Source: Pyropia yezoensis (taxonomy: Eukaryota > Rhodophyta > Bangiophyceae > Bangiales > Bangiaceae). Taken from it: a DNA stretch of 64,000 bases. The first letter of the stretch is position 1. The number at the start of each line of letters is the position of its first letter. The stretch is taken from positions 23,286,020 to 23,350,019 of the forward strand of contig CM020620.1 of assembly GCA_009829735.1 (NCBI GenBank). Direction: 5' to 3'. Both the position numbers and the translations under genes were made by a program. Shown here piece after piece: positions 5,150-64,000 of this stretch. Below the pieces are notes generated by a model. That model did not search any database, was not told where the DNA came from, and saw only the letters and a program-made list of their open reading frames with translations.

Positions 5150-5720
5150 TGTAGCATTCCTGGCCCTGACTTGGCGCCAACCTGGGACTGCAACCAGAGG
5201 GCACCAGGTGCCAGATCACGCCCGCCGTGTGGTGATGGTTGGCGGCCGACGCCCGTGCCCGGCACTGGGATGCGGTGGACTACGCTACCCACACGTGAGA
5301 GAGGGATTTCTGATGGGTTTTTGCATACTTGTGAGGGACTTGATTTGAGAGAATTTGAGTGTGAGATTAGTGAGTGGGAATAGAATTAGTAGTGATAGTG
5401 GCCCCCGACCTGACGAGGTTTGACTCGGGTCGGGGCCACTCGGGGGTATGGGGGGGCTACCTGGCCAACGTGCCGAGGCTTCCCCGGATGTACGTTAAGA
5501 GGGACAGCGAGGCGCCCTCGGCCCGCGCCCTCAGGAAAAAGACAACTGCGGGTTTGCTTTCCTCTTCCCCGTGTGCACTACCGTGCGTATCTGTTTGCTC
5601 TGCGCGCAGGCACGTGAGGCAACAGGCATACCACTCTCGTAGTTCCCCTTTCTGTGTTACCTGTCGCTTTCCTCCGAGGGGTATTGACACGTGTCTGAAA
5701 GGATCGAGTTTTATACCACA
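5150..5720 (+). repeat. 5' LTR of A1
   Basis: 571 bp, from TGTAGCATTCC to TTATACCACA. It matches 14226-14796 at about 98%. A primer-binding site follows four bases later. Confidence 0.93.
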
Positions 5721-5724
5721 TATT

Positions 5725-5742
5725 TGGTGGAGCAGCAGGGGA
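5725..5742 (+). promoter_or_regulatory. Primer-binding site of A1
   Basis: TGGTGGAGCAGCAGGGGA lies four bases after the LTR. It is complementary to a tRNA 3' end whose acceptor strand reads CUGCUCC plus discriminator A plus CCA. I could not assign the tRNA. The same 18-mer starts the internal regions of the B, D and TRIM elements here. Confidence 0.7.
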
Positions 5743-17123: not shown

Positions 17124-17593
17124 TGTGGCAGTATTGACCCCCAGGTAGGGGGGCAACACGTGCCATGCAAGGGGCGGCAGGCCACTAGCCTGACCCGTTT
17201 CTCCCCGTGCACTTGGGCCCATATTCCCTAAGTTTGGGATAGTTAGCTTAGTAGTAAATCCAACTTGGATTTGAGGGGTTTCTGCATTGTATCGTCTTGA
17301 ATTTTCGTGTGGCCCGGTGGGCAGGTACTGGGGTGGGAGATTTCGAGTGGCGAGATTCTGAGAGGACCCTGGGGGGATAAGGGGAGGGACAGCGGGGCTT
17401 GGCCTCGCTTCCCCGTCACCACCAAGAAACTGTTGGTTCACACACCATCTTCTTGTTTTGTCGTGGGGGGTTTGCCCCACACCAGGGATAGAGTGTGTGC
17501 GACTTGCACTTTTTCCGGCTCCCTCGACACGGGAGGCAGCCCTTGTACACCGCCCCAACTTGGGTGTCGTGTGTGCAAGTGGTTTTTGCCACA
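17124..17593 (+). repeat. 5' LTR of B1
   Basis: 470 bp, TGTGGCAGTATTG to TTTGCCACA. It closely matches 15230-15698, 47581-48049 and, inverted, 42876-43345. Confidence 0.9.
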
Positions 17594-47580: not shown

Positions 47581-48049
47581 TGTGGCAGTATTGACCCCCA
47601 GGTAGGGGGGCAACACGTGCCATGCAAGGGGCGGCAGGCCACTAGCCTGATCCGTTCCTCCCCCTGCATTTGGGTCCATATTCCCTAAGTTTGGGATAGT
47701 TAGCTTAGTAGTAAATCCAACTTGGATTTGAGGGTTTTCTGCATTTATCGTCTTGAATTTTCGTGTGGCCCGGTGGGCAGTTGCTGGGGTGGGAGATTCT
47801 GAGTGGCGAGATTCTGAGTGGACCCTGGGGGGATAAGGGGAGGGACAGCGGGGCTTGGCCCTGCGTCCCCGTCCCGACCAAGAAACTGTTGGACCACACA
47901 CCATCCTCTTGTTTGTCCGTGGGGGGTTTGCCCCACAACAGGGACAGAGTGTGTGCGACTTGCACTTCTTCCGGTTCCCCCGACACGGGAGGCAGCCCTT
48001 GTACACCGCCCCAACTTGGGTGCCGTGGGTGCTTGTGGTTTTTGCCACA
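47581..48049 (+). repeat. 5' LTR of B2
   Basis: 469 bp, TGTGGCAGTATTG to TTTGCCACA, with 7-bp inverted ends. Confidence 0.93.
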
Positions 48050-48051
48050 TT

Positions 48052-48069
48052 TGGTGGAGCAGCAGGGGA
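48052..48069 (+). promoter_or_regulatory. Primer-binding site of B2
   Basis: TGGTGGAGCAGCAGGGGA, two bases after the LTR; the same 18-mer as in A1, D and the TRIM. Confidence 0.7.
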
Positions 48070-48144
48070 CAGAGGTAGACTTTACCTCCGGGTGCACCCG
48101 GGTGTAGGGGGCCCTCTGTCTCAGAGGAACGGTGGTCTTGGACC

Positions 48145-50115
48145 GTGTCATACGGATCATTTGCCAACATGGCTAGTTCGGACCCCCCGTCGTCCGGGGA
48201 GTACACGGGTGACGCACGTACTTCAGTGCCTTTGAATACTGGTGAGACACAGGTGGGTTTACCTGGGGTCGCAGAGGGACTAGAGGTCCCTCAAGCCAGC
48301 AGGACTGGAAGTACGGGCGGGCAACAGGCCACCCCGACTCAGTCGGGAGTTCACTCGGGTGACACTTCTGATGTGGGTGGGCCGAAGTCTGGCCACCGTG
48401 TGGTATACTCAACGGGAACGTCCTAAGGGGTGAGGACTGTCCCCGCGGGTTCCACTCGGGTTGGAGCCAACTTTGGCTTGGAGTCGTCGCCAACTAGGCT
48501 TTCGGAGGACGGTGGACCTCCGTTGGTCGGCGATGGGCTCGCGCCCATGCCCCCGGTTGAGACCCCTGAGGAACGTGGTTACCCCTCAGGTGGACTCCCG
48601 GAGGCGGACCGAGACTCAACTGGAGTCGTCAATCCACTCCTCGCGGAAACTGTCCGTCGGGAGGCGACCAATGTGTTGCGGCAGACTTTGCCGGACCTGG
48701 TGGTCACGATGACGAATACTATTCTGAATCAGATTGTGGCGAGTTTGCCAGATGGCCTTAATGTCCAAACCGGATTGGGGCTTTCGAGCCCGCAGGCGCA
48801 GGGGGAATCCCCCCTTACGCCTATCTCTGGTCGCCCCGAACTGGGGGCGACACCTGTGACTCCCAACGAGGGAGCCACACCATACTCGGTGGGGCGTACG
48901 CCCTTCACGGGGGAGTTCCCCCCGGAAACGCCGGCGGCTACACCAAGCGCGCCGCGCCGGACTACAGGCACTGAGAGTGAACTTACCCCAGTGCCACAGC
49001 GGCTGTTCCCTCAACGTGAGGTGCCGCCCAAGATCCAGGTAGCCAACCCGGTCTACCAGAGGATCTTTGACTGTGAGACCTACGCCCTCCACAACAAGTC
49101 GGTGGCGTATGGTCCTGACCAGGCCCGAGCCATGGGCCGTGCCAAGAAGAATGCACTTCATTCTTTTGGGCACAAAGCGGAGTGGGACGGAACTCCCCCC
49201 CTCCGTGTCTTTGAGTTCCTACGTCGTTTCACAAAAGCCTGTGACGACAATGCCATAAGTGAAGGCATGGCTTTTTACATGCTACAGGAGTTTACGAAGG
49301 GCGACCTACGGACAGAACTTATGTCCGTCATGCCCAGCTCCTCGAGTGGAGGCGCTGGGGAGGTGACGTCCTATTTGGAGCTCGTCAACTGGTTGTTGAG
49401 AGCCATGGTTGATGAGGCAGCGTTGGCTTCTCAAGTCGAGGAGTTTACGCAAGCCCATCAGGAAGAGGCGGAGGACGAGTTGTCATTTGCGGAGCGAGTC
49501 CGTAAGCTCAACAATCTTTGTGGGTTTCTTCATCCACAAGCTGTGGTGAAGATTCGGTTTGTGGAGGGACTCCATTGGTCAGTCCGGATGGAGACCCGGG
49601 AGCATAACACTGCCCGGGCGACCCTGGCCGAGTTGGCCAGGTTCGCCTATCGCAGAGGCGAGGCCTACCGCAAGTTGCGGGAGGAACAACGCCAGGAGCG
49701 TCAGGCCGAGTTGGCCAAGGAACGGGAGGAGGCGCGCCAGGCCAGAGAGTTGAGAGAGGCACGCCGAATCCGCAAGGAGAGGGTGGTAGCTGCCGTGGGA
49801 ACTTCCCAGGGTATCCCTTCGTCTTCCCCAGTTGGGAAGACCCCTCCGGGAACTGACAATCGGTGTTGGAGCTGCAACTCCGATGGACACTGGGCATATG
49901 ATTGCCCCAAGTTGAGTAAACGCATCCAACAACTTGTTAGGAATGCGAGTAAAAAGTCGGCTACGAACGAAGTACGTTCACGCCGCGAGGGTGGGTCTCG
50001 ACCGGTCGTTGCGGTCGCCACACCCTCGGCGGAGGAGGCGGACACGTCGTCCTCGGACTCGTCGTCTTCCTCCCCGCCCTCAGATTCGGACGCCAAGTCG
50101 GCGGGAAACGAATGA
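48145..50115 (+). pseudogene. Gag of B2
   Basis: The main frame is 48430-50115 (561 codons); homologous N-terminal sequence begins at about 48145. After a Pro/Thr/Gly-rich N-terminus, the capsid-like region (about 49000-49680) has the retrotransposon Gag pattern. An Arg/Glu-rich coiled stretch (49660-49790) is followed by a CCHC knuckle, CWSCNSDGHWAYDC, near 49866-49907, then an Asp/Ser tail. The gag stop overlaps the pol start (ATGA at 50112-50115), so termination-reinitiation or read-through is plausible. The first part of the region appears broken, while the core is open. Confidence 0.8.
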
Positions 50116-52746
50116 CCGTTGGGGCTGGTCGTCCGAAGCTCACAACGGCAGCCTCGGCCAAGTGGGCCAGGAGGACGAACCAACCGTGCCGGATACTGCG
50201 GCGACCTAAGGGAGTCCGCCCACCTCAGGTAGGACTCCCCAAGAACGTAAACCCACGTCGGGTCATCGCGGGGCTGACGGGTGAGAACTTCCAGGTGGCT
50301 GGACGGGTGCAACTTGCCCCCGGCCGTGCATGCTGTACCCGTATCGTACTTGATACCGGGTCAGGAGCCTCCTTGATACGCGAGTCGCTATTACCAAAGG
50401 AGGTGAAGCTCCAACGCTGGAGGTCCAAAGCTGACCATATGATTGACATCAATGGTGGGGTACTTCCCATCGTTGGTGCCGTGACCCTACCAACTAGGTT
50501 GGGGACCCATGAGGTCGACGTGACCTTTGGCGTAGTTGAGAATATATCGGTACCCCTGCTTCTGGGTACCCCTTATGTTGTTACACAAGTGCCTTTGATT
50601 TGTGGCCCTGAGTACTGGGTCAAGTTGATGAATGGGGAGACTATCCCCATCCTTGGTAAGGGAAAGTCTGTGGCTCCTGTGACAGTCTCACAGTCGAAGC
50701 CTGTTTGCTCTGTGAGGGAAGGGTTTACTGCTACCCTGCGTTTAGCCCGCAAAGTCACGTTGTCCCCCAACTCGGTGGCGCACGTTGATGTTGTAACTGA
50801 TTTTACGGGGAACGGGTTGGTGCACCCTCACCCCCGTTTTGCTCGCAAGCACCAAGTGCATGTTGCCCTTGGCACGATGGACTCCAAAGCCGGAGTCCCG
50901 TGGAGGATCCAGGTGATGAACCTGAGCCCGACGCCCAAGTACTTCAAGTCGGGAGCCAAGTTCGGCTATACCGACCAACACGAGGGACCGGTAGTAGCGG
51001 TCACCCTCAACGCGGGCGCAAGTAGCGACCCGAAGTCCGGAAAGGAGAAGCATCAAACCAAGTCGGCCGCCTCTCCTCGACCCCATGTGAACATGGAGGG
51101 TGTCCCCCCCAGGTTGAGGGTTCAAGTTGAACGCTTCTTGGACCAATATCACAAGCTGTGGGATGGTCAATTGGGACTCATGAGAGCCACCCAACACCGG
51201 ATCGAGTTGAAGCCCGGTGCACCCCCTATACGCCAACAACCGTATAGGGGAGGACCTCGTTCAAGGGCCCTCGTTAAGGAGCAAGTTGCTCGCATGGAGG
51301 CCCTCGATGTGATCGAGGCCAGCAACGCCGAGTGGGCGAGTCCGGTGGTTATCGTCCCCAAAGTTGATGGGACCCCCCGGTTTTGTATCGACTACCGTAA
51401 GCTCAACGAGAGCACGGTGAAGGAAAGTTATCCCCTACCTAGGATGGATGACTGTCTGGACTCTCTGGGGGAGGCAAACGTGTTCTCTACCCTGGACTGT
51501 AACGCGGGGTACTGGCAAATTCCCATTGCCCCGGAGGACAGGCATAAAACTACCTTTACCTGTCACTGTGGTACCTACCAGTGCAAGCGCCTACCGTTTG
51601 GTCTGTGTAACGCGCCGGCAACTTTCCAGCGCGCTATGGACAAGATTCTGGCCGGAGTACAGCGGCAGATCTGTCTTGTGTACCTAGACGATATCATTGT
51701 GTTCTCCCGAAGTCCGGAGGAACACATTGGCCATCTTGGCCAGGTGTTCAAGCTACTTGCTGACGCCGGTGTGTCACTGAAGGCGAGTAAGTGCCACCTC
51801 TTTACTCAAGAGGTGGAGTACTTGGGACATGTTGTCCATCCGGGGCGTCTCAGTGTTAACGAGAAGAACTTGAGGGCCATTCGTAAGGCTCAGTACCCCC
51901 GGACCCAGACCCAGATGAGGAGCTTCCTCGGGATGTGTAACGTGTACCGACGTTTCACCAAGGGCTTCGCCAAGGTGGCGAAGCCGTTGAATGAGCTAGT
52001 GAGCTCAACGCTACCGAAGAACCTGCCTCCCCCAAGTCGGGTGGAGCAGGAATCCTTTGAGACTCTTCGGGACCTTCTGCTGAAGCCCCCCATCTTGGCT
52101 ATTCCCAGGTTGGGAGGCCACTACATCCTGGATGTGGACGCTAGCTACGACCAACTTGGTTGTGTGTTGCTTCAGCAGCAGCCGGACAAGGAGTACTTGC
52201 CGGTGGGATACTTTAGTAAGGGGCTGAACTCGGCCGAGAAGAACTACGGAGTCACCGAGTTGGAAGGACTCGCAGTGGTGTGGGCGGTGACGTCACTTCG
52301 TCACTACCTGGAGGGTGAGAAGTTCCTCATCCGCTGTGACCACCGCGCGTTGCAGTTCATCTTTAAGACGGACTGTACGAACACTCGTCTCAACCGGTGG
52401 AGGGTGCGACTGGCACCCTTCAACTTTGACATTGAGTACCGACCTGGCAGGCAACATGCCCTTGCCGACGGCCTCTCTCGGGTACCTACCGAGGGGCTGG
52501 ACACTAACCCAGTCGATGAGGACATCCCCATCGTGGGGGTAGTCACGCGCTCGGGTCAGGCGTTGAACCCCGAGGCGCCAGGGAACAAGAAGTACTTGCC
52601 CCTGTCCCTGGACGAGGTGGTGAAGGCCCAGGCCGGGGATCCCTTCTGCAAGTCGCAGAGGGATATACTGGATACGGTGGTTGAGACGCGCTTCTTTCTG
52701 GGAGACGATGGCCTCCTCATGAGGAGGGGGGTATTCCAGGGGGACC
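50112..52746 (+). pseudogene. Pol of B2 (protease, RT, RNase H; integrase absent)
   Basis: An open frame. The protease motif VLDTGSGASLI is near residue 80. The reverse transcriptase runs about residues 390-570, with FCIDYRKLNE, the palm block SPLDCNAGYWQI-like and the catalytic YLDDIIVF near 523. RNase H begins near 675 (DVDASYDQLGCVLLQQ), with TELEGLAVVWA, IRCDHRAL and HALADGLSR completing the acidic active site. The frame then meets the TRIM LTR, where integrase would be expected. All visible catalytic motifs are intact, so the element broke recently. Confidence 0.88.
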
Positions 52747-52947
52747 TGTAGCATAATACATAATCACCGATCGGCTTACCTAAAAGGTAGGTACTCGTAA
52801 TGAGATGGGGCCAAAACCCCAAATCTGGCTCGAGATGTCAGGGATTTCACCCGGTTGCCTAGTGGTTTGAGCGCGCCATTCCGCTTACTTCTCAAGGGCC
52901 CGGGTTCGATTCCAACTCTCCGATATCTACTTTTTCGTTATTCCACA
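52747..52947 (+). repeat. Left LTR of the TRIM
   Basis: 201 bp, identical by eye to 53163-53363. It holds the Pol III signals at 52855-52935. Confidence 0.92.
52855..52935 (+). promoter_or_regulatory. tRNA-type Pol III promoter and terminator in the left LTR
   Basis: The A-box-like TTGCCTAGTGGT (52855-52866) is followed by a perfect B box GGTTCGATTCC (52903-52913), starts 48 bases apart, close to tRNA spacing. A T5 terminator lies at 52931-52935. The D-arm partly pairs (GCCT with GAGC), but acceptor, anticodon and T stems do not, so this is tRNA-derived, not a working tRNA gene. A Pol III transcript would be about 90-100 nt and end inside the LTR. Confidence 0.65.
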
Positions 52948-52948
52948 A

Positions 52949-52966
52949 TGGTGGAGCAGCAGGGGA
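52949..52966 (+). promoter_or_regulatory. Primer-binding site of the TRIM
   Basis: TGGTGGAGCAGCAGGGGA, one base after the LTR, identical to those of A1, B2 and D. Confidence 0.75.
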
Positions 52967-52972
52967 TCTCGC

Positions 52973-53040
52973 ACGTGCGAACAGGGCCGAAATACACGTG
53001 GCATCATGCAACGTGCGAACAGGGCCGAAATACACGTGGC
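52973..53040 (+). repeat. 30-bp direct repeat inside the TRIM
   Basis: 52973-53002 and 53011-53040 are identical 30-mers (ACGTGCGAACAGGGCCGAAA and on), separated by eight bases. Function unknown; it could be a packaging or pairing element, or simple slippage. Confidence 0.85.
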
Positions 53041-53162
53041 GGGAACCGGCTGTAAGGAATGACGAGGAAATAGGTGTCGTTGCTGGAACTGGGGAGTTCC
53101 AGATCGAGAGGGCCGGGGACTTAGGCCGAATCGGGGACGATTCGGACTTAAGGAGGGGGTTA

Positions 53163-53363
53163 TGTAGCATAATACATAATCACCGATCGGCTTACCTAAA
53201 AGGTAGGTACTCGTAATGAGATGGGGCCAAAACCCCAAATCTGGCTCGAGATGTCAGGGATTTCACCCGGTTGCCTAGTGGTTTGAGCGCGCCATTCCGC
53301 TTACTTCTCAAGGGCCCGGGTTCGATTCCAACTCTCCGATATCTACTTTTTCGTTATTCCACA
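53163..53363 (+). repeat. Right LTR of the TRIM
   Basis: Identical by eye to the left LTR. A box at 53271-53282, B box at 53319-53329, T5 at 53347-53351. From this LTR a Pol III transcript would also end before the LTR edge. Confidence 0.92.
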
Positions 53364-53371
53364 ATCAAATA

Positions 53372-53944
53372 TGTGGTATAAAACTCGATCCTCTCAGACA
53401 CGTGTCAATATCCCTCGGGGGAAAGGGACAGGTAACGCAGAAAGGGGAACTACGAGAATGGTATGCCTGTTGCCTCACGTGCCTGCTCGCAGGGCAAACA
53501 GATACGCACGGTAGTGCACACGGGGAAGAGGAAAGCAAACGCGCAGTTGTCTTTTTCCCTGAGGGCGCGGGCCGAGGGCGCCTCGCTGTCCCTCTTAACG
53601 TGCATCTGGGGGAACCCCGGCACGTTGGCCCGGTAGCCCCCCCCATAACCCCGAGTGGCCCCGACCCGAGTCTAACCTCGTCAGGTCGGGGGCCACTATC
53701 ACTACTAATTCTATTCCCACTCACTAATCTCACACTCAAATTCTCTCAAATCAAGTCCCTCACAAATATGCAAAAACACATCAGAAATCCCTCTCTCGCG
53801 TGTGGATAGCGTAGTCCACCGCATCCCAGTGCCGGGCACGGGCCACGGCCGCCAACCATCGCCACACGGCGGGCGTGTTCTGGCACCTGGTGCCCTCTGG
53901 TTGCAGTCCCGGGTCGGCGCCAAGTCGGGGCCAGGGATGCTACA
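53372..53944 (-). repeat. 3' LTR of A2
   Basis: 573 bp. Its reverse complement starts TGTAGCATCCC and ends TTATACCACA, as in A1. It abuts the TRIM with only eight bases (ATCAAATA) between. Confidence 0.92.
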
Positions 53945-56391: not shown

Positions 56392-59300
56392 TCAATCCTC
56401 TTGTTCCGCATCCGTTGCGGGTGAGCTCGTCTCGTCCCCAGGGTCTTGGTTGGCCCCGTCCTCTTGGTCCTCCTCCGTGTCCGACTCCAGAATCTTGCCG
56501 GCTCTGGCCACGGGAGTGCCCTCAATCCCGTTCCGTCGCGTGTAGGCACAGACGTCCGCGATGGGTAGCCGGTTTGAGGGTTCCCATGTATCATCTGCTG
56601 GGTTAAAGCCGAACCAGCGTACTCGCAGGTACAGGCGTCCATCTCTCCAGGCATGGTCGACAAACTTGACGTAGACAAATTCCCGACCTTCTTCTTGGGA
56701 TAGCCAGGGTATCGCAGTCCGCTTACGCCGGGTCAAGTCCCGTTGGCTTGGCGGTGGAGCTCGGGTGACATGGTCGCTGCTCACCCGGTACGGAGAGCCA
56801 TCCACGTCTAGAAGGAAGGTCCAGCCATCCGTATTGAGAATCTCATAAGGTCCATCCGTCTTAGAGTCCAGCTTCCCCCGGGTCTTGCTATGGTTGTCCA
56901 CAAAAACCCAGTCGCCACCACCCAGTTCCTTGTTCTTTTCCCGGACACCCTTGTCATAGTCCCGCTTGTATCGCTCCTGGGTCTTTGAGATTGACTCCTT
57001 GACTCTTGGGAGCAGGAGCTTTAGTTGTTCCAGGAACTCATCCTTTGCCTTGGGACCTGACTTCAGTGCAGGCTGGAGACCATCCGGTATTCTTTCCAGG
57101 GAGAAGTTGGTCAGCCGCCTTGGGGTGACAAAGTCGAGTGGAGCGACTCCCGTTGTCCGGTGAACTCGGGAGTTGTAGGCTAGAGTGAGGACAGCCAGGA
57201 GCTCGTCCCAGTCTTCTTGGTGCTCCTCCACGTAGTGCCGTAGCATGTCCACTAGGGTCCGGTTGAATCGTTCCACCTGACCGTTCGTTTGAGGGTGGTA
57301 CGTCGTGGTGTACAAGTTCTTGATGCCCATCAGGTCACAGACTCCTTGGAAGAACAGGGATGCAAACTGGGGACCGTTGTCGGTTAAGACGGAGTCTGGA
57401 GGGCCGTAGGCAGCTATCCAGTACTCGCAGAAGGCCGACGTGACATCCAGAGCCGTGATGGTTCTCAACGGGATTGCTCGAGTGAACTTGGAGAACCGGT
57501 CACAAATGATGAGCAGGTATATGTTGCCACTGGAGGTCTCAGGTAGGGGCCCCAGGATGTCCATGCTTAAGCTTGCAAAGGGCTCCGCCGCAGGGAATAG
57601 GCGTAGCTTAGAAGTCTTCTTCCTCTGGGACAACCGGTTCCTTGCACAAGAAATACAAGCCTCCAGGCACTTATGGACGTCACTGGCCATGGTTTCCCAG
57701 TAATAATGTCGTCTCATGGAAGCATACATCCGATTGATACCAGGATGCCCGGCCTGGGGAGACAAGTGCTCCAGGCGTAGGATGTCAGTCCGTAGGCTCC
57801 GGGGTACGTAGACTTGAGTTGCCCCATCGAAGGGTGACACCCGTACCAGGAGTCCGTCTGTAGACTCGGAGAAGCGACTGTTCCGGTTCAGGTCCATTTG
57901 GTGGCGAAGCTCCAAGCATTGAGGGTCCGTCAATTGTGCCTCCAGCATCCGGTGAATGGTTACCGGTTGATGAGCGTCAGGTGTCTCGTACAGGGGAGCG
58001 TGCCAGCCACGTCCGACATTCGGGAGGATGAAGCAAGGTATTTCCTCCGGGATAGGACCGGTATCGGCTGCAGGAGTCTCCAGCCTGGACATGGTGTCGG
58101 CGCAGTGGTGCTCCCTCCCTGCTCTGGTGCACACCTTGTACTTGAACTCCGAAAGGCGTAGGCGCCACCGGGCGACCCTTCCTTGACTGCTGTCCATGCA
58201 TAGCAGCCACCTTAGACTGGCGTGGTCCGTCCGGATGAGGAACTCTTGTCCTTCAAGATATGGACGTAACAGGAAGCAAGCCCAGACGACCGCCAAGCAC
58301 TCGCGCTCGGTCGTGGAATAGTTCTTCTCGGCTGGAGTCAAGACGCGACTGTAGTAGCCTATCGGGAGGAAGTGCCCATCAGGTTGTTGCTGGAGTAGTG
58401 AGCACCCCACCTGGACGCCACAGGCGTCAGTCTCCAGAACAACCTGACCCTCCCGCTTGGGTAACGCCAGTACTGGAGTGGTGGTCAGGCGCTTCTTGAG
58501 CTCTTCGAAGGCTGCTGTCTGCTTCTCGTCGAACACCGGGAGTTGTGCTGGAAGCTTCTTGCTAGTAAGCTTGGTCAAGGGCCGGGCAATCAGAGCGTAG
58601 TCCCGTACGAACCGGCGGTAGACGTTGCACATACCCAGGAAGCTCTTGAGTTCCGTCTGGGTTTTAGGTTGCCGTGCATGCCGGAGGGCCTTGATGTTCT
58701 TCTCGTTGACTCGGAGCTCCCCCGGACTCAGCACGTGCCCCAGGTACTCCACCTCAGTCTCAAACAGGTGGCACTTCTCGGCCTTGAGGGTAACTCCAGC
58801 CTTGGACAGGAGGGCCAGGACCTCTCGAAGGTGCTCCAGGTGTTCCGCTGGGGTCTTGGAGAAAACAATGATGTCGTCCAGGTAGACCAAACATGTTCTC
58901 CACCTTAGCCCCGACAGGATGATGTCGATGGCTCTCTGGAAGGTTGCCGGAGCATTAGTGAGACCAAAAGGGAGACGCTTGCACCGGAACAGTCCCATGT
59001 GGCACGTGAAGGTAGTCTTGTCCTTGTCCTCGTCAGCCAGAGGGATCTGCCAGTAACCGGCATTACAATCCAGCGTCGAGAAGAGGGTGGCATCACCAAG
59101 AAAGTCGAGGCAATCATCCATCCGGGGTATCGGGTATACATCCTTGACTGTCATCTCGTTCAGGCGTCTGTAGTCAACGCAGAAACGGAAGTGACCGCCA
59201 GGTTTCGGGACGACTACCACCGGGAAAGCCCACTCGCCATCAGACGGCTCGATAACATCCATCTTGAGCATCTTGTTAACCTGCTTCTCAATCTCATCCC

Positions 59301-60351
59301 GGCGATGAGGTCCAGCCCGGTATGGGTGCATGTGCACTGGTTTGGCATCTGGCTTGAGTTGAATCCGGTGTAGGGTGGCGTCCATCTTGCCCAGCTCTCC
59401 AGACCACAGATGCCGATGTTCCTGGAGAAGCTTCTCCAGTGCCTCCTTCAAGTCGGGAGGGACGTTTTCTTGGTTGACCTTCGGCATCCCGGGCGGTGCT
59501 TGTTCCGGCTTCGGAGTAGTACGGCCAGCCTGCTCTTGTTCCGGAGATACGTCTAAGGCCGTCAAGTTGGATGCCAGCTCTTGTTGCAGGTTGAAGAGGT
59601 CTTCCTTGCTCATAGCGCGGGCGGACCCCCGGTAAGGCTCTGCTGTACCAACTCGAGTGCCCTTGGCGAGGGTTATTGGCTTCCGGCTCACGTTGACGAT
59701 CAGCACCGAGAACGGGGTGTGCCTCTCCACCTTCTTGTGGTGTCCGTGGGCTAGGTATAATCGGTGTTTCGCCAGAAATTCCTTGCGTCCGTAGATCAGG
59801 CATTGACCTGCAGTCCGGGTCGTGACTTGAACCTTGGTCTCCGAGCGAGGAGGTAGGAGCACCGGTTTGATGAGGGTCAAGGTGGAGGGTGGGATGCGTT
59901 CCTTCTGGTTCTTGGCCACACGAACCTTGGTGTCCAGGTGCTCCAGCACTGGTGACACAACCCCATGGTTGAACTGCACCTTTCCTTCTCCGGGTAGGAT
60001 GCTCTTGACATGCTGCTTCTGGAAGTCCCAGCCTAGGATGAGGGGGACTGATAAGGTCTTGACTACTAGAAAGGGAAAAAGCATTGGTTCATTGTTGACA
60101 TAGATGGCGACGGGAAGACGGCCAAGCGGTCGTAGGGTTTGACCTGATGCGTCTACAATCCGGGTCTTGGTAGGCGCTCTCCAGGCATGTCGACGCCAGC
60201 CCGGAGGTAACAGGTTCTCAGTGATGACGCTTGGTCCGGCTCCCGTGTCGACCACCGGCGTAACAGCTTGGGGGAGGCTATCCCCCACATGCATACGAGC
60301 ATTAATCTTGAGGTTTTCCTTACGCAGGACGAGCAAGGTCCCCTTGAACAA
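56392..60351 (-). CDS. Pol of A2: protease, RT, RNase H, integrase, chromodomain
   Basis: A single 1319-codon frame that looks whole. The protease DTGA motif is at residues 35-38. The reverse transcriptase has FCVDYRRLNE near 400 and LVYLDDIIVF near 490. RNase H starts near 637 (LETDACGVQVGC). The integrase zinc region H-X-H-C-X2-C spans about 865-907, and its catalytic acids lie in SMDILGPLP (about 929), LTDNGPQF (about 988) and TNGQVERFNR (about 1025). The chromodomain lies at about 1222-1272 (YLRVRWFGFNPADDTWEPSN). Domain order and chromodomain place it with the chromoviruses. All catalytic motifs are present. The start may be earlier if pol is made by fusion with gag, as in some relatives. 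Confidence 0.93.
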   Translation of the reverse strand: MFKGTLLVLRKENLKINARMHVGDSLPQAVTPVVDTGAGPSVITENLLPPGWRRHAWRAPTKTRIVDASGQTLRPLGRLPVAIYVNNEPMLFPFLVVKTLSVPLILGWDFQKQHVKSILPGEGKVQFNHGVVSPVLEHLDTKVRVAKNQKERIPPSTLTLIKPVLLPPRSETKVQVTTRTAGQCLIYGRKEFLAKHRLYLAHGHHKKVERHTPFSVLIVNVSRKPITLAKGTRVGTAEPYRGSARAMSKEDLFNLQQELASNLTALDVSPEQEQAGRTTPKPEQAPPGMPKVNQENVPPDLKEALEKLLQEHRHLWSGELGKMDATLHRIQLKPDAKPVHMHPYRAGPHRRDEIEKQVNKMLKMDVIEPSDGEWAFPVVVVPKPGGHFRFCVDYRRLNEMTVKDVYPIPRMDDCLDFLGDATLFSTLDCNAGYWQIPLADEDKDKTTFTCHMGLFRCKRLPFGLTNAPATFQRAIDIILSGLRWRTCLVYLDDIIVFSKTPAEHLEHLREVLALLSKAGVTLKAEKCHLFETEVEYLGHVLSPGELRVNEKNIKALRHARQPKTQTELKSFLGMCNVYRRFVRDYALIARPLTKLTSKKLPAQLPVFDEKQTAAFEELKKRLTTTPVLALPKREGQVVLETDACGVQVGCSLLQQQPDGHFLPIGYYSRVLTPAEKNYSTTERECLAVVWACFLLRPYLEGQEFLIRTDHASLRWLLCMDSSQGRVARWRLRLSEFKYKVCTRAGREHHCADTMSRLETPAADTGPIPEEIPCFILPNVGRGWHAPLYETPDAHQPVTIHRMLEAQLTDPQCLELRHQMDLNRNSRFSESTDGLLVRVSPFDGATQVYVPRSLRTDILRLEHLSPQAGHPGINRMYASMRRHYYWETMASDVHKCLEACISCARNRLSQRKKTSKLRLFPAAEPFASLSMDILGPLPETSSGNIYLLIICDRFSKFTRAIPLRTITALDVTSAFCEYWIAAYGPPDSVLTDNGPQFASLFFQGVCDLMGIKNLYTTTYHPQTNGQVERFNRTLVDMLRHYVEEHQEDWDELLAVLTLAYNSRVHRTTGVAPLDFVTPRRLTNFSLERIPDGLQPALKSGPKAKDEFLEQLKLLLPRVKESISKTQERYKRDYDKGVREKNKELGGGDWVFVDNHSKTRGKLDSKTDGPYEILNTDGWTFLLDVDGSPYRVSSDHVTRAPPPSQRDLTRRKRTAIPWLSQEEGREFVYVKFVDHAWRDGRLYLRVRWFGFNPADDTWEPSNRLPIADVCAYTRRNGIEGTPVARAGKILESDTEEDQEDGANQDPGDETSSPATDAEQED

Positions 60352-60479: not shown

Positions 60480-61878
60480 CTACTCGTTTCCCGGCTCCGA
60501 GGAGTCCTTAGAGGTTTCGGTCTCCAGGTCAAAGTCCGTAGGAGCTTCCCTTGCCAGAGCCTCCGTGATGCTCTGTAAGGTTGCCACTCGGATGGCATGT
60601 ACCTGTGCCTTGTCCATCTTGGAGGGTGCCCGCCGGTCAGCCCAGTTGACCGCCTTTGCAAACACCAGTCCTTGACGCTTGAGTTTCTCCTGGAGATCCT
60701 CGGGAATGGTCGGGCACTGGTAGGACATATGATCCTCCTTCTGGCACAGCCAGCAAGACCGGAACCGCTGGTTCCTGATCTGCTTGGGGGCGACCAGGGA
60801 AGGTTGCTCCTTAGAAACGAAGCCGCCCCACTTGTCCCTTGACTCCATGGGTGAGGCCTCGCCAACTGCGAGTACCGGTACAGGGTTATCACCTCCCTTA
60901 TACTTGTCGGGTCCGGGACGAACTCGCGACAACGGCTTGGGGGTTGATACCATAGGAGCCTGGAGGGCCTTGGCTTGCCGGTGCTTGCCCTGGGTGTAGG
61001 CCATCAACTGCTGGAAGGTATGTTCTTGATGTTCCTGGTTGTAGTTCTCCGCATCCACTTGAAGATATTCAGGAAGCCCCTCCGAGAAGATCATCTTGAG
61101 CCTGTCCTCAGGGTAAACGTTGCCACAAGCATCGCTCATCTCCCGGACACGACGGGCGAACGCCTCTGGAGTCTCTTGTCTCTCCATGGTTGCCCGGTTC
61201 AGCCTACCGACTGCCTTACGCAGGGAGTCCGCGTCTGCGTAGTTGGACAGGAGCCAGTTGACCGCCTCCGGATAACTCGCGACGGTACGTCCAACAATGT
61301 GCCCGCAGAGTCTGGTAGAACCTGTGCAAACCGCTGTTCCGCTTCTCCGGTCATGAAGTTAACCAGGAGATAGAGAGCCTTGCCCTCGGACACATCGTTG
61401 TCATTGCATGCCTTGACAAACCGGCGCAGGAAGGCAAAGATAAGCGCCGGTCTCTTCCCGAAAACTTAGGATGCCCCCCAAAGCTCGGCTGCATTCGCCG
61501 GTTCAGGGATGCCATCTTCTTGGCCATCTTCCGGGTGTAACCTTGGTCTTGGTTCTCCAGCCGGTAGTTACCCCAATACGTGACCTTGTTCAGGGTGGCA
61601 TCTCCCACTTGGTGGGCAGGAAAGTCGAACTCGACTAGCCTGCGCCGGGTAGGACCGGGAGATGCATCCCAGTCATATCCCTCCTCAGAGCTGGAGGAAC
61701 TGGTCTCGCTGGTGCTAGAGCGGCGGCGACGACGCCGACGCCTACGGCTGCTCCGGTCACCGGTCTTGGAGCTCCCGCCCATAGGACGCAAGGGGAGGAA
61801 AAGCTTGGCCGGTCCCAGGAGTTGAAGTCTCAGGAAGACCCGTAGAACCAGTCATAGCGGTGCCTCTGGCACTGCTAG
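60480..61878 (-). pseudogene. Gag region of A2
   Basis: Homologous to A1 gag: Ser/Thr/Pro-rich N-terminus, an Arg-run near 61720-61750, acidic Ser tract, capsid-like core, and a zinc knuckle CWLCQKEDHMSYQC near 60720-60765. The left part runs into the N gap. It appears broken once or twice. Confidence 0.82.
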
Positions 61879-62378
61879 NNNNNNNNNNNNNNNNNNNNNN
61901 NNNNNNNNNNNNNNNNNNNNNNNNNNNNNNNNNNNNNNNNNNNNNNNNNNNNNNNNNNNNNNNNNNNNNNNNNNNNNNNNNNNNNNNNNNNNNNNNNNNN
62001 NNNNNNNNNNNNNNNNNNNNNNNNNNNNNNNNNNNNNNNNNNNNNNNNNNNNNNNNNNNNNNNNNNNNNNNNNNNNNNNNNNNNNNNNNNNNNNNNNNNN
62101 NNNNNNNNNNNNNNNNNNNNNNNNNNNNNNNNNNNNNNNNNNNNNNNNNNNNNNNNNNNNNNNNNNNNNNNNNNNNNNNNNNNNNNNNNNNNNNNNNNNN
62201 NNNNNNNNNNNNNNNNNNNNNNNNNNNNNNNNNNNNNNNNNNNNNNNNNNNNNNNNNNNNNNNNNNNNNNNNNNNNNNNNNNNNNNNNNNNNNNNNNNNN
62301 NNNNNNNNNNNNNNNNNNNNNNNNNNNNNNNNNNNNNNNNNNNNNNNNNNNNNNNNNNNNNNNNNNNNNNNNNNNNNN
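61879..62378. other. Assembly gap of exactly 500 N
   Basis: All N. A round 500 usually marks a scaffold join of unknown size. Family-A sequence lies on both sides, so a repeat stopped the assembly. Confidence 0.98.
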
Positions 62379-64000
62379 ACATTCGGGAGGATGAAGCAAG
62401 GTATTTCCTCCGGGATAGGACCGGTATCGGCTGCAGGAGTCTCCAGCCTGGACATGGTGTCGGCGCAGTGGTGCTCCCTCCCTGCTCTGGTGCACACCTT
62501 GTACTTGAACTCCGAAAGGCGTAGGCGCCACCGGGCGACCCTTCCTTGACTGCTGTCCATGCATAGCAGCCACCTTAGACTGGCGTGGTCCGTCCGGATG
62601 AGGAACTCTTGTCCTTCAAGATATGGACGTAACAGGAAGCAAGCCCAGACGACCGCCAAGCACTCGCGCTCGGTCGTGGAATAGTTCTTCTCGGCTGGAG
62701 TCAAGACGCGACTGTAGTAGCCTATCGGGAGGAAGTGCCCATCAGGTTGTTGCTGGAGTAGTGAGCACCCCACCTGGACGCCACAGGCGTCAGTCTCCAG
62801 AACAACCTGACCCTCCCGCTTGGGTAACGCCAGTACTGGAGTGGTGGTCAGGCGCTTCTTGAGCTCTTCGAAGGCTGCTGTCTGCTTCTCGTCGAACACC
62901 GGGAGTTGTGCTGGAAGCTTCTTGCTAGTAAGCTTGGTCAAGGGCCGGGCAATCAGAGCGTAGTCCCGTACGAACCGGCGGTAGACGTTGCACATACCCA
63001 GGAAGCTCTTGAGTTCCGTCTGGGTTTTAGGTTGCCGTGCATGCCGGAGGGCCTTGATGTTCTTCTCGTTGACTCGGAGCTCCCCCGGACTCAGCACGTG
63101 CCCCAGGTACTCCACCTCAGTCTCAAACAGGTGGCACTTCTCGGCCTTGAGGGTAACTCCAGCCTTGGACAGGAGGGCCAGGACCTCTCGAAGGTGCTCC
63201 AGGTGTTCCGCTGGGGTCTTGGAGAAAACAATGATGTCGTCCAGGTAGACCAAACATGTTCTCCACCTTAGCCCCGACAGGATGATGTCGATGGCTCTCT
63301 GGAAGGTTGCCGGAGCATTAGTGAGACCAAAAGGGAGACGCTTGCACCGGAACAGTCCCATGTGGCACGTGAAGGTAGTCTTGTCCTTGTCCTCGTCAGC
63401 CAGAGGGATCTGCCAGTAACCGGCATTACAATCCAGCGTCGAGAAGAGGGTGGCATCACCAAGAAAGTCGAGGCAATCATCCATCCGGGTATCGGGTATA
63501 CATCCTTGACTGTCATCTCGTTCAGGCGTCTGTAGTCAACGCAGAAACGGAAGTGACCGCCAGGTTTCGGGACGACTACCACCGGGAAAGCCCACTCGCC
63601 ATCAGACGGCTCGATAACATCCATCTTGAGCATCTTGTTAACCTGCTTCTCAATCTCATCCCGGCGATGAGGTCCAGCCCGGTATGGGTGCATGTGCACT
63701 GGTTTGGCATCTGGCTTGAGTTGAATCCGGTGTAGGGTGGCGTCCATCTTGCCCAGCTCTCCAGACCACAGATGCCGATGTTCCTGGAGAAGCTTCTCCA
63801 GTGCCTCCTTCAAGTCGGGAGGGACGTTTTCTTGGTTGACCTTCGGCATCCCGGGCGGTGCTTGTTCCGGCTTCGGAGTAGTACGGCCAGCCTGCTCTTG
63901 TTCCGGAGATACGTCTAAGGCCGTCAAGTTGGATGCCAGCTCTTGTTGCAGGTTGAAGAGGTCTTCCTTGCTCATAGCGCGGGCGGACCCCCGGTAAGGC
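62379..64000 (-). mobile_element. A3: partial pol of a family-A element
   Basis: The minus strand carries the reverse transcriptase and RNase H part of pol. It matches 58016-59638 almost base for base by eye. It starts at the gap and runs off the window. It may be a second A element in the same orientation, or the same element represented twice by overlapping or alternative contigs. Confidence 0.9.

Follow-up and report, generated by a model that had tools for sequence, protein, structure and literature searches.

The locus and its neighbours

The window (the whole 64,000-nt stretch of Pyropia yezoensis DNA analysed here) carries at 52747-53363 a 617-bp miniature LTR retroelement (TRIM), made up of two LTRs, a primer-binding site (PBS), a polypurine tract (PPT) and a 215-bp internal part. 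Its features are as follows.

52747..52947, + strand: 5' LTR, 201 bp, TGTAGC...TCCACA, same sequence as the 3' LTR
52825..52846, + strand: 22-nt motif upstream of the A box, 5' LTR; 19/22 identical between TRIM families
52855..52865, + strand: A-box-like motif TTGCCTAGTGG, 5' LTR
52903..52913, + strand: perfect B box GGTTCGATTCC, 5' LTR
52931..52935, + strand: T5 run, 5' LTR (LTR positions 185-189), putative Pol III stop and R/U5 border
52948-53162: internal part, 215 bp
52949..52966, + strand: PBS TGGTGGAGCAGCAGGGGA, common to the TRIM and the gypsy elements of the window
52973-53002 and 53011-53040, + strand: two identical 30-nt direct repeats in the internal part
53150..53162, + strand: polypurine tract AAGGAGGGGG (purines 53150-53159) plus TTA, ahead of the 3' LTR
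53163..53363, + strand: 3' LTR, 201 bp
53241..53262, + strand: 22-nt upstream motif, 3' LTR (LTR positions 79-100)
53271..53281, + strand: A-box-like motif TTGCCTAGTGG, 3' LTR
53319..53329, + strand: perfect B box GGTTCGATTCC, 3' LTR
53347..53351, + strand: T5 run, 3' LTR (LTR positions 185-189), putative end of the element RNA

The LTRs are 201 bp each with 0 mismatches to one another, and an ORF scan found no ORF of more than 103 aa inside the TRIM; the internal part can fairly be called non-coding. The sequence-only reading had described identical 201-bp LTRs with PBS and PPT around 215 non-coding bases, an anatomy that the coordinates bear out, and had placed in each LTR an A-box-like motif, followed at near-tRNA spacing by a perfect B box, and a T5 run, all of which were recovered by position; the B box starts 48 nt downstream of the start of the A-box-like motif in both LTRs. 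The A-box consensus is TRGCNNAGTGG, to which the motif has one mismatch. The promoter pattern AGTGG-N{26,52}-GGTTCGANTCC has two matches in the window, both in the TRIM, by comparison with 0 in 100 shuffles. The 30-nt internal repeats lie 8 nt apart, each starting ACGTGCG and ending CACGTGGC, and may be a packaging or structural signal.

Two families of Ty3/gypsy elements, here gypsy1 and gypsy2, are also present in the window.

5150..5720, + strand: gypsy2 5' LTR, 571 bp, TGTAGCAT...ACCACA; same PBS at 5725
17124..17593, + strand: gypsy1 LTR (candidate helper of TRIM family 2), 470 bp, TGTGGCAGTAT...GCCACA
47581..52746, + strand: gypsy1 copy ending where the TRIM begins; LTR, leader, gag-like zinc-knuckle ORF, RT/RNase H ORF
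53364..53371, no strand: 8-nt junction, TRIM end head-to-head with the gypsy2 LTR end
53372..53944, - strand: gypsy2 LTR (candidate helper of TRIM family 1)

The gypsy2 ORF at 56395-60351 (- strand) combines RT, RNase H and integrase in one pol ORF, as a Ty3/gypsy helper should: it contains RVT_1, RNase H, H2C2 and rve domains, and a weak match to Chromo that stays below threshold. In the gypsy1 ORF of the window, truncated by the TRIM, only RVT_1 and RNase H are present. The 8-nt junction consists of AT on the TRIM side and CAAATA, the reverse complement of the TATTTG that follows the gypsy2 5' LTR at 5721, and its bases read as those just past the TRIM and gypsy2 LTRs respectively. A run of N at about 61852-62549 occupies roughly the place where the gypsy2 copy attached to the TRIM should have its 5' LTR.

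Copies of the element and their age

Genome searches spanned the 107.48-Mb assembly; repeats, chiefly LTR retrotransposons, are described as 48% of the P. yezoensis genome (PMC7423979). The window TRIM belongs to what we term family 1, the LTR of which returned 112 candidates genome-wide, and the 40 that were scored match at 94-100%. After pairing both LTRs per element, which stand at 416-bp spacing, 30 extracted loci resolved into seven full copies, 15 solo LTRs and one chimera. Exact 5-bp target-site duplications (TSDs) flank 17 of the 22 non-chimeric copies, that is six of the seven full copies and 11 of the 15 solo LTRs; four solo LTRs are without one, and the window copy is the sole full copy that lacks it. 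The sequence-only reading would have been refuted had this been the only copy, which it is not. The copy at L004 is the same as the window copy over all 617 bp, yet its flanks differ and it has a TSD. Mismatches between the two LTRs in six full copies (L023 left out) number 0, 0, 3, 3, 3 and 6 of 201; the recent movement proposed from the identical LTRs of the window copy accords with such identity in two of the six.

A second family with the same promoter pattern

Genome-wide, AGTGG-N{26,52}-GGTTCGANTCC has 112 matches versus four for the reversed pattern, and these comprise family 1, true tRNA genes and a second TRIM family. The family-2 element is 658 bp long, with an LTR of 214 bp, an internal part of 230 bp, the same PBS as family 1 and a T5 run; its A box (TGGCGCAGTGG) and B box (GGTTCGATTCC) are both perfect. 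There are 73 family-2 candidates in the genome, 40 of them scored, and inspection by eye showed 5-bp TSDs at eight of 13 loci, a pair of which have common flanks. Loci L102 and L103 hold a third variant, 76% identical to family 2, in which the boxes have decayed. At C3:6153330-6154430 three family-2 LTRs follow one another at about 440-bp spacing, which by that spacing would be a tandem LTR-internal-LTR-internal-LTR array.

Conservation of the putative promoter elements

Comparison of one LTR from each family gave identities of 11/11 for the B box, 8/11 for the A box and 19/22 for the upstream motif, with 7/10 for the T5 region, 41/80 for the distal U3 and 13/37 for the spacer between the A and B boxes; local alignment of the whole LTRs scored 87, against a best of 37 among 300 shuffles. 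The identity of the boxes is partly by construction because the pattern used to find family 2 contains parts of both; the upstream motif and the contrast with the spacer were not built in by that pattern. When the 22-nt upstream motif was used alone as a query it was found at 79 places genome-wide (reversed control, 0), and among the 71 LTRs examined at these places 50 have AGTGG followed at near-tRNA spacing by a perfect B box, compared with four matches to the reversed pattern in the whole genome; the remaining 21 are without the full box pattern. The motif itself, which both families have just ahead of the A box and which is of non-tRNA type, may be a start-site or factor-binding element or a part of R.

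Conservation within families is a different matter. Among 38 distinct family-1 LTRs the mean deviation is 1.14 times the average in the A box and 0.60 times in the B box, a combination that ranks 33 of 142 slid positions. Conservation of the boxes does not significantly exceed that of the rest of the LTR, which is what a family of mostly young, neutral copies would show. In family 2 the corresponding values are 0.49 and 0.57, rank 11 of 156, for 23 distinct LTRs that had mostly been picked by the box pattern. The expectation that the boxes would be better conserved than the rest of the LTR thus holds between families, where boxes and upstream motif form conserved islands, and is not clearly borne out within family 1. 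In neither family is the T5 run clearly more conserved than the average position (ratios of 0.95 and 1.4). We also considered whether T4 runs are scarce on the transcribed strand, given that the two T5 runs are the only ones in each of the two elements checked, and dropped the point as uninformative (P 0.60, dinucleotide shuffles). A hairpin upstream of the A box seemed to be conserved between families, and was set aside on finding that the pair closing it is disrupted in several copies.

Relation to tRNA and other RNA classes

Neither Rfam nor ARAGORN reports a tRNA in the TRIM LTR, and a functional tRNA gene was rejected on that ground. In full-length alignments to 19 tRNA rows, the best match for both families was tRNA-Val (z of 6.9 and 4.7, mononucleotide shuffles), with tRNA-Gly nearly as good (z of 6.1 and 4.6; isotypes assigned by eye among the same 19 rows), such that tRNA-Val as parent of the LTR core is only hinted at. 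Scans of one copy per family against Rfam 15 gave no 5S rRNA at E up to 10 and no self-cleaving ribozyme family at E <= 10, and both were discarded as constituents of the LTR.

The PBS matches 12 nt, not all 18, of the one tRNA-Ala with which it was compared (by eye). The exact 18-nt pattern of a primer tRNA occurs at 15 places; the eight that were read look by eye like gypsy PBS regions, and ARAGORN found no tRNA among those eight.

Two further kinds of sequence came to light in these searches. Loci L099:541, L100 and L101 (C1:43011041, C2:6937606 and C3:12492975) belong to another dispersed repeat of about 230 bp that ends in GGTGTG or AGTGTG, with an A box like TGGCGCAGTGG or a variant of it and the B box GGTTCGA(T/G)TCC; LTR-type direct repeats are absent in L099 and L100, none of the three loci has an Rfam match, and the repeat is perhaps a SINE family. 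Genes resembling tRNA-Gly(CCC) are accompanied at a distance of 9 to 18 kb by a second sequence corresponding to the T-arm half only (C1:12934175/12943425, C1:38737259/38719715 and C3:1597163/1585329), as if one larger segment had been repeated.

Chimeric insertions pair each TRIM family with a gypsy element

Five matches to the PBS with <=3 mismatches, including that of the TRIM, occur in the window where 0.1 would be expected, and the PBS is common to both TRIM families, gypsy1 and gypsy2. The LTR tips divide these elements in two: TGTAGCAT is common to family 1 and gypsy2, and TGTGGCAGTAT to family 2 and gypsy1.

The same pairs recur in chimeric insertions. Locus L029 has the order TRIM LTR, TRIM internal part 1-178, gypsy2 3' end with its PPT, gypsy2 LTR, all inside one 5-bp duplication (AGATA). 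At C1:27581154-27591195 (L121/L104/L079/L123) a gypsy1 element, the dinucleotide TA and a whole family-2 TRIM lie inside one duplication (CAGGA); the LTR starts of this gypsy1 are 8.9 kb apart and the 3 kb of its interior that was read is 97.6% identical, in register, to gypsy1 of the window. Enclosure within a single 5-bp duplication is as expected of one integration event, and the simplest reading of the chimeras is that RNA or cDNA of TRIM and helper came together in a single particle. Loci L069, L106 and L108 are part gypsy1 and part family 2, with the changeover at the border of LTR and PBS, and at L102/L103 the variant LTR is placed straight after a gypsy1 LTR. For the L069 chimera, the place predicted for the 5' end of its gypsy1 (L122) did not contain it.

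The census of chimeras took in contacts within 10 nt and was restricted to gypsy1 and gypsy2. Across the loci examined, and for the two gypsy families screened, family 1 forms boundary chimeras with gypsy2 only and family 2 with gypsy1 only; at L088 and L005, outside the 10-nt census, a family-2 LTR lies 16 and 15 nt respectively from a gypsy1 LTR. Four other contacts were left out of the chimera count: L018 (family 1 and gypsy2) and L019 (family 1 and gypsy1) because TSDs are present, and L117 (family 2 and gypsy2) and L120 (family 1 and gypsy1) because the TRIM LTR abuts the middle of a gypsy LTR, as in a nested insertion (one side read). From these pairs we infer that gypsy2 is the helper of family 1 and gypsy1 that of family 2.

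Interpretation of the element and weighing of alternatives

TRIMs with tRNA-like LTRs are described under the name Helenus from fungi, six animal phyla and the lycophyte Selaginella (Kojima, 2024, PMC10886601), and the name TRIMp3 is in use for TRIMs with a Pol III promoter (PMC10886601). Of the features by which Helenus is recognised, TRIM structure, A and B boxes in the LTR and a TSD within 4-6 bp are found here, the TSD being 5 bp, and derivation of the LTR from a tRNA is only hinted at. We consider it probable that the window element is a Helenus-type TRIM (TRIMp3) that would be transcribed by Pol III and mobilised by gypsy proteins. In favour of this, the sequence shows the anatomy of a TRIM, dispersed copies with TSDs, a second family of like layout, a common PBS and LTR tips, chimeric insertions and boxes conserved across families. 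Counted against this interpretation are the mismatch in the family-1 A box, the weak conservation of the boxes within family 1 and of T5 in both families, the missing exact TSD at the window copy and at four of 15 solo LTRs, the partly built-in box identity of family 2, the LTRs retrieved by the upstream motif that lack the full box pattern, the decayed third variant, the lack of an Rfam or ARAGORN tRNA match in the LTR and the partial fit of the PBS to tRNA-Ala.

By this interpretation the A and B boxes would recruit Pol III to a start point some 10-20 nt ahead of the A box in the 5' LTR; the T5 run of that LTR would be read through in some rounds and transcription would stop at the T5 run of the 3' LTR. 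R would extend from the start to T5 (about 95 nt), leaving the last 12 nt as U5. Proteins of one particular Ty3/gypsy element (gypsy2 for family 1; gypsy1 for family 2) would then package this RNA and copy it into DNA from a primer at the shared PBS, and integration would produce 5-bp target duplications. Retroviruses read through their 5' poly(A) site, passing a stop signal at the 5' end. The puzzle that T5 had seemed to pose, as a terminator inside the LTR, may accordingly be an ordinary problem of LTR elements in which the same signal is passed once and obeyed once, and this fits T5 as the R/U5 border.

More tentatively, and as something slightly less likely than not, we propose that a Pol III cassette (22-nt motif, A and B boxes, T5) moved between LTR frames bearing the tips of different Ty3/gypsy helpers; the LTR tip and PBS, not long LTR homology, would set the helper, and the Pol III start and T5 would define R. 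If the cassette was carried between frames that match different helpers, the same parasite promoter would therefore have changed its helper.

A gypsy-mobilised TRIM could instead be transcribed by Pol II like its helper, with the boxes left over from a SINE or tRNA that had long ago inserted into the LTR. The want of special box conservation within family 1, the decayed boxes at L102/L103 and the T5 run of the 5' LTR, which would stop much Pol III transcription, all speak for this. Relics should, however, decay between families, and it is the boxes and the upstream motif that are best conserved there while the spacer has diverged; furthermore, TRIM and helper LTRs are without similarity beyond their tips, and therefore no helper Pol II promoter is evident. 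We judge transcription by Pol II unlikely. Somewhat less likely again is that the gypsy-TRIM chimeras arose by DNA recombination of resident copies through the shared 20-nt PBS, in which case they would be silent on co-packaging. L069, L106 and L108 switch at precisely this border and by themselves could be recombinants, and gypsy1 LTRs are abundant (1124 candidates); L029, by contrast, switches inside the internal part and the composite containing L079 is joined end-to-end, each within its single duplication, and these two are hard to explain by DNA recombination.

Two other explanations merit hardly any credence. A tandem or segmental duplication with accidental A and B boxes would suit the absence of a TSD at the window copy, and is refuted by dispersed TSD-flanked copies, by the solo LTRs and the second family, and by pattern counts that greatly exceed those of the controls. 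A retrozyme-like element, in which the LTR holds a self-cleaving ribozyme, would likewise be small and non-autonomous with LTRs, PBS and PPT; the Rfam 15 scan of one copy per TRIM family, with no ribozyme family at E <= 10, leaves it with just as slight a chance.

Comparison with known systems

SINEs derived from tRNA are short, gene-less elements with an internal promoter of A and B boxes. The P. yezoensis TRIMs are unlike them in having two LTRs, a PBS, a PPT and 5-bp integrase-type TSDs. Cassandra, a plant TRIM, has a 5S rRNA promoter in its LTR, and its RNA both begins and ends within the LTR (PMC10886601); it shares with the P. yezoensis elements a gene-less LTR structure and a Pol III-type promoter in the LTR (predicted in the latter), whereas the boxes here are of tRNA type and no 5S match was obtained in the Rfam scans of one copy per family. 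Small gene-less TRIMs with 5-bp TSDs, with promoter unspecified, are described from plants and algae including the red alga Chondrus crispus (Gao, 2016, PMC4717578), and in these respects ordinary plant and algal TRIMs resemble the present ones; the term RNA polymerase III is absent from the main text of that paper.

The closest likeness is to Helenus. As described in PMC10886601, Helenus elements are, like those of P. yezoensis, under 1000 bp, with tRNA-like A and B boxes in the LTR, a PBS and a PPT; both occur as solo LTRs and as several families per genome, and neither is a functional tRNA. That description links Helenus with gypsy and a 4-bp TSD in animals and with Copia and a 5-bp TSD in fungi (PMC10886601), and presents Helenus without demonstration of Pol III transcription. 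The 5-bp TSD found here is as in fungal and plant Helenus (PMC10886601). The sequence-only reading had known of no described case in this kind of organism: as a kind, such elements were already in print as Helenus/TRIMp3, while red algae (Porphyra, Pyropia, Rhodophyta, Chondrus) are absent from the main text of PMC10886601, and no report of a red-algal TRIM of the tRNA-promoter type was found in searches of the open-licence PMC literature. What is new is therefore the host and the sequence evidence that points to helpers; TRIMs with predicted Pol III promoters would now extend to red algae, a lineage unnamed in that main text, which belongs to the sole description of the tRNA type that these searches turned up.

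The P. yezoensis TRIMs differ from Helenus as there described in their red-algal host and in the pairing of a putative Ty3/gypsy helper with a 5-bp TSD (PMC10886601). Further features are the conserved motif ahead of the A box and the chimeras of TRIM and candidate helper, neither of which is reported for Helenus in the parts of PMC10886601 drawn upon here. With a promoter core common to two sister families of TRIMs, two candidate helpers and chimeras inside single TSDs, P. yezoensis offers concrete helper pairs, unusually direct sequence evidence for them and a question about helpers that is directly testable.
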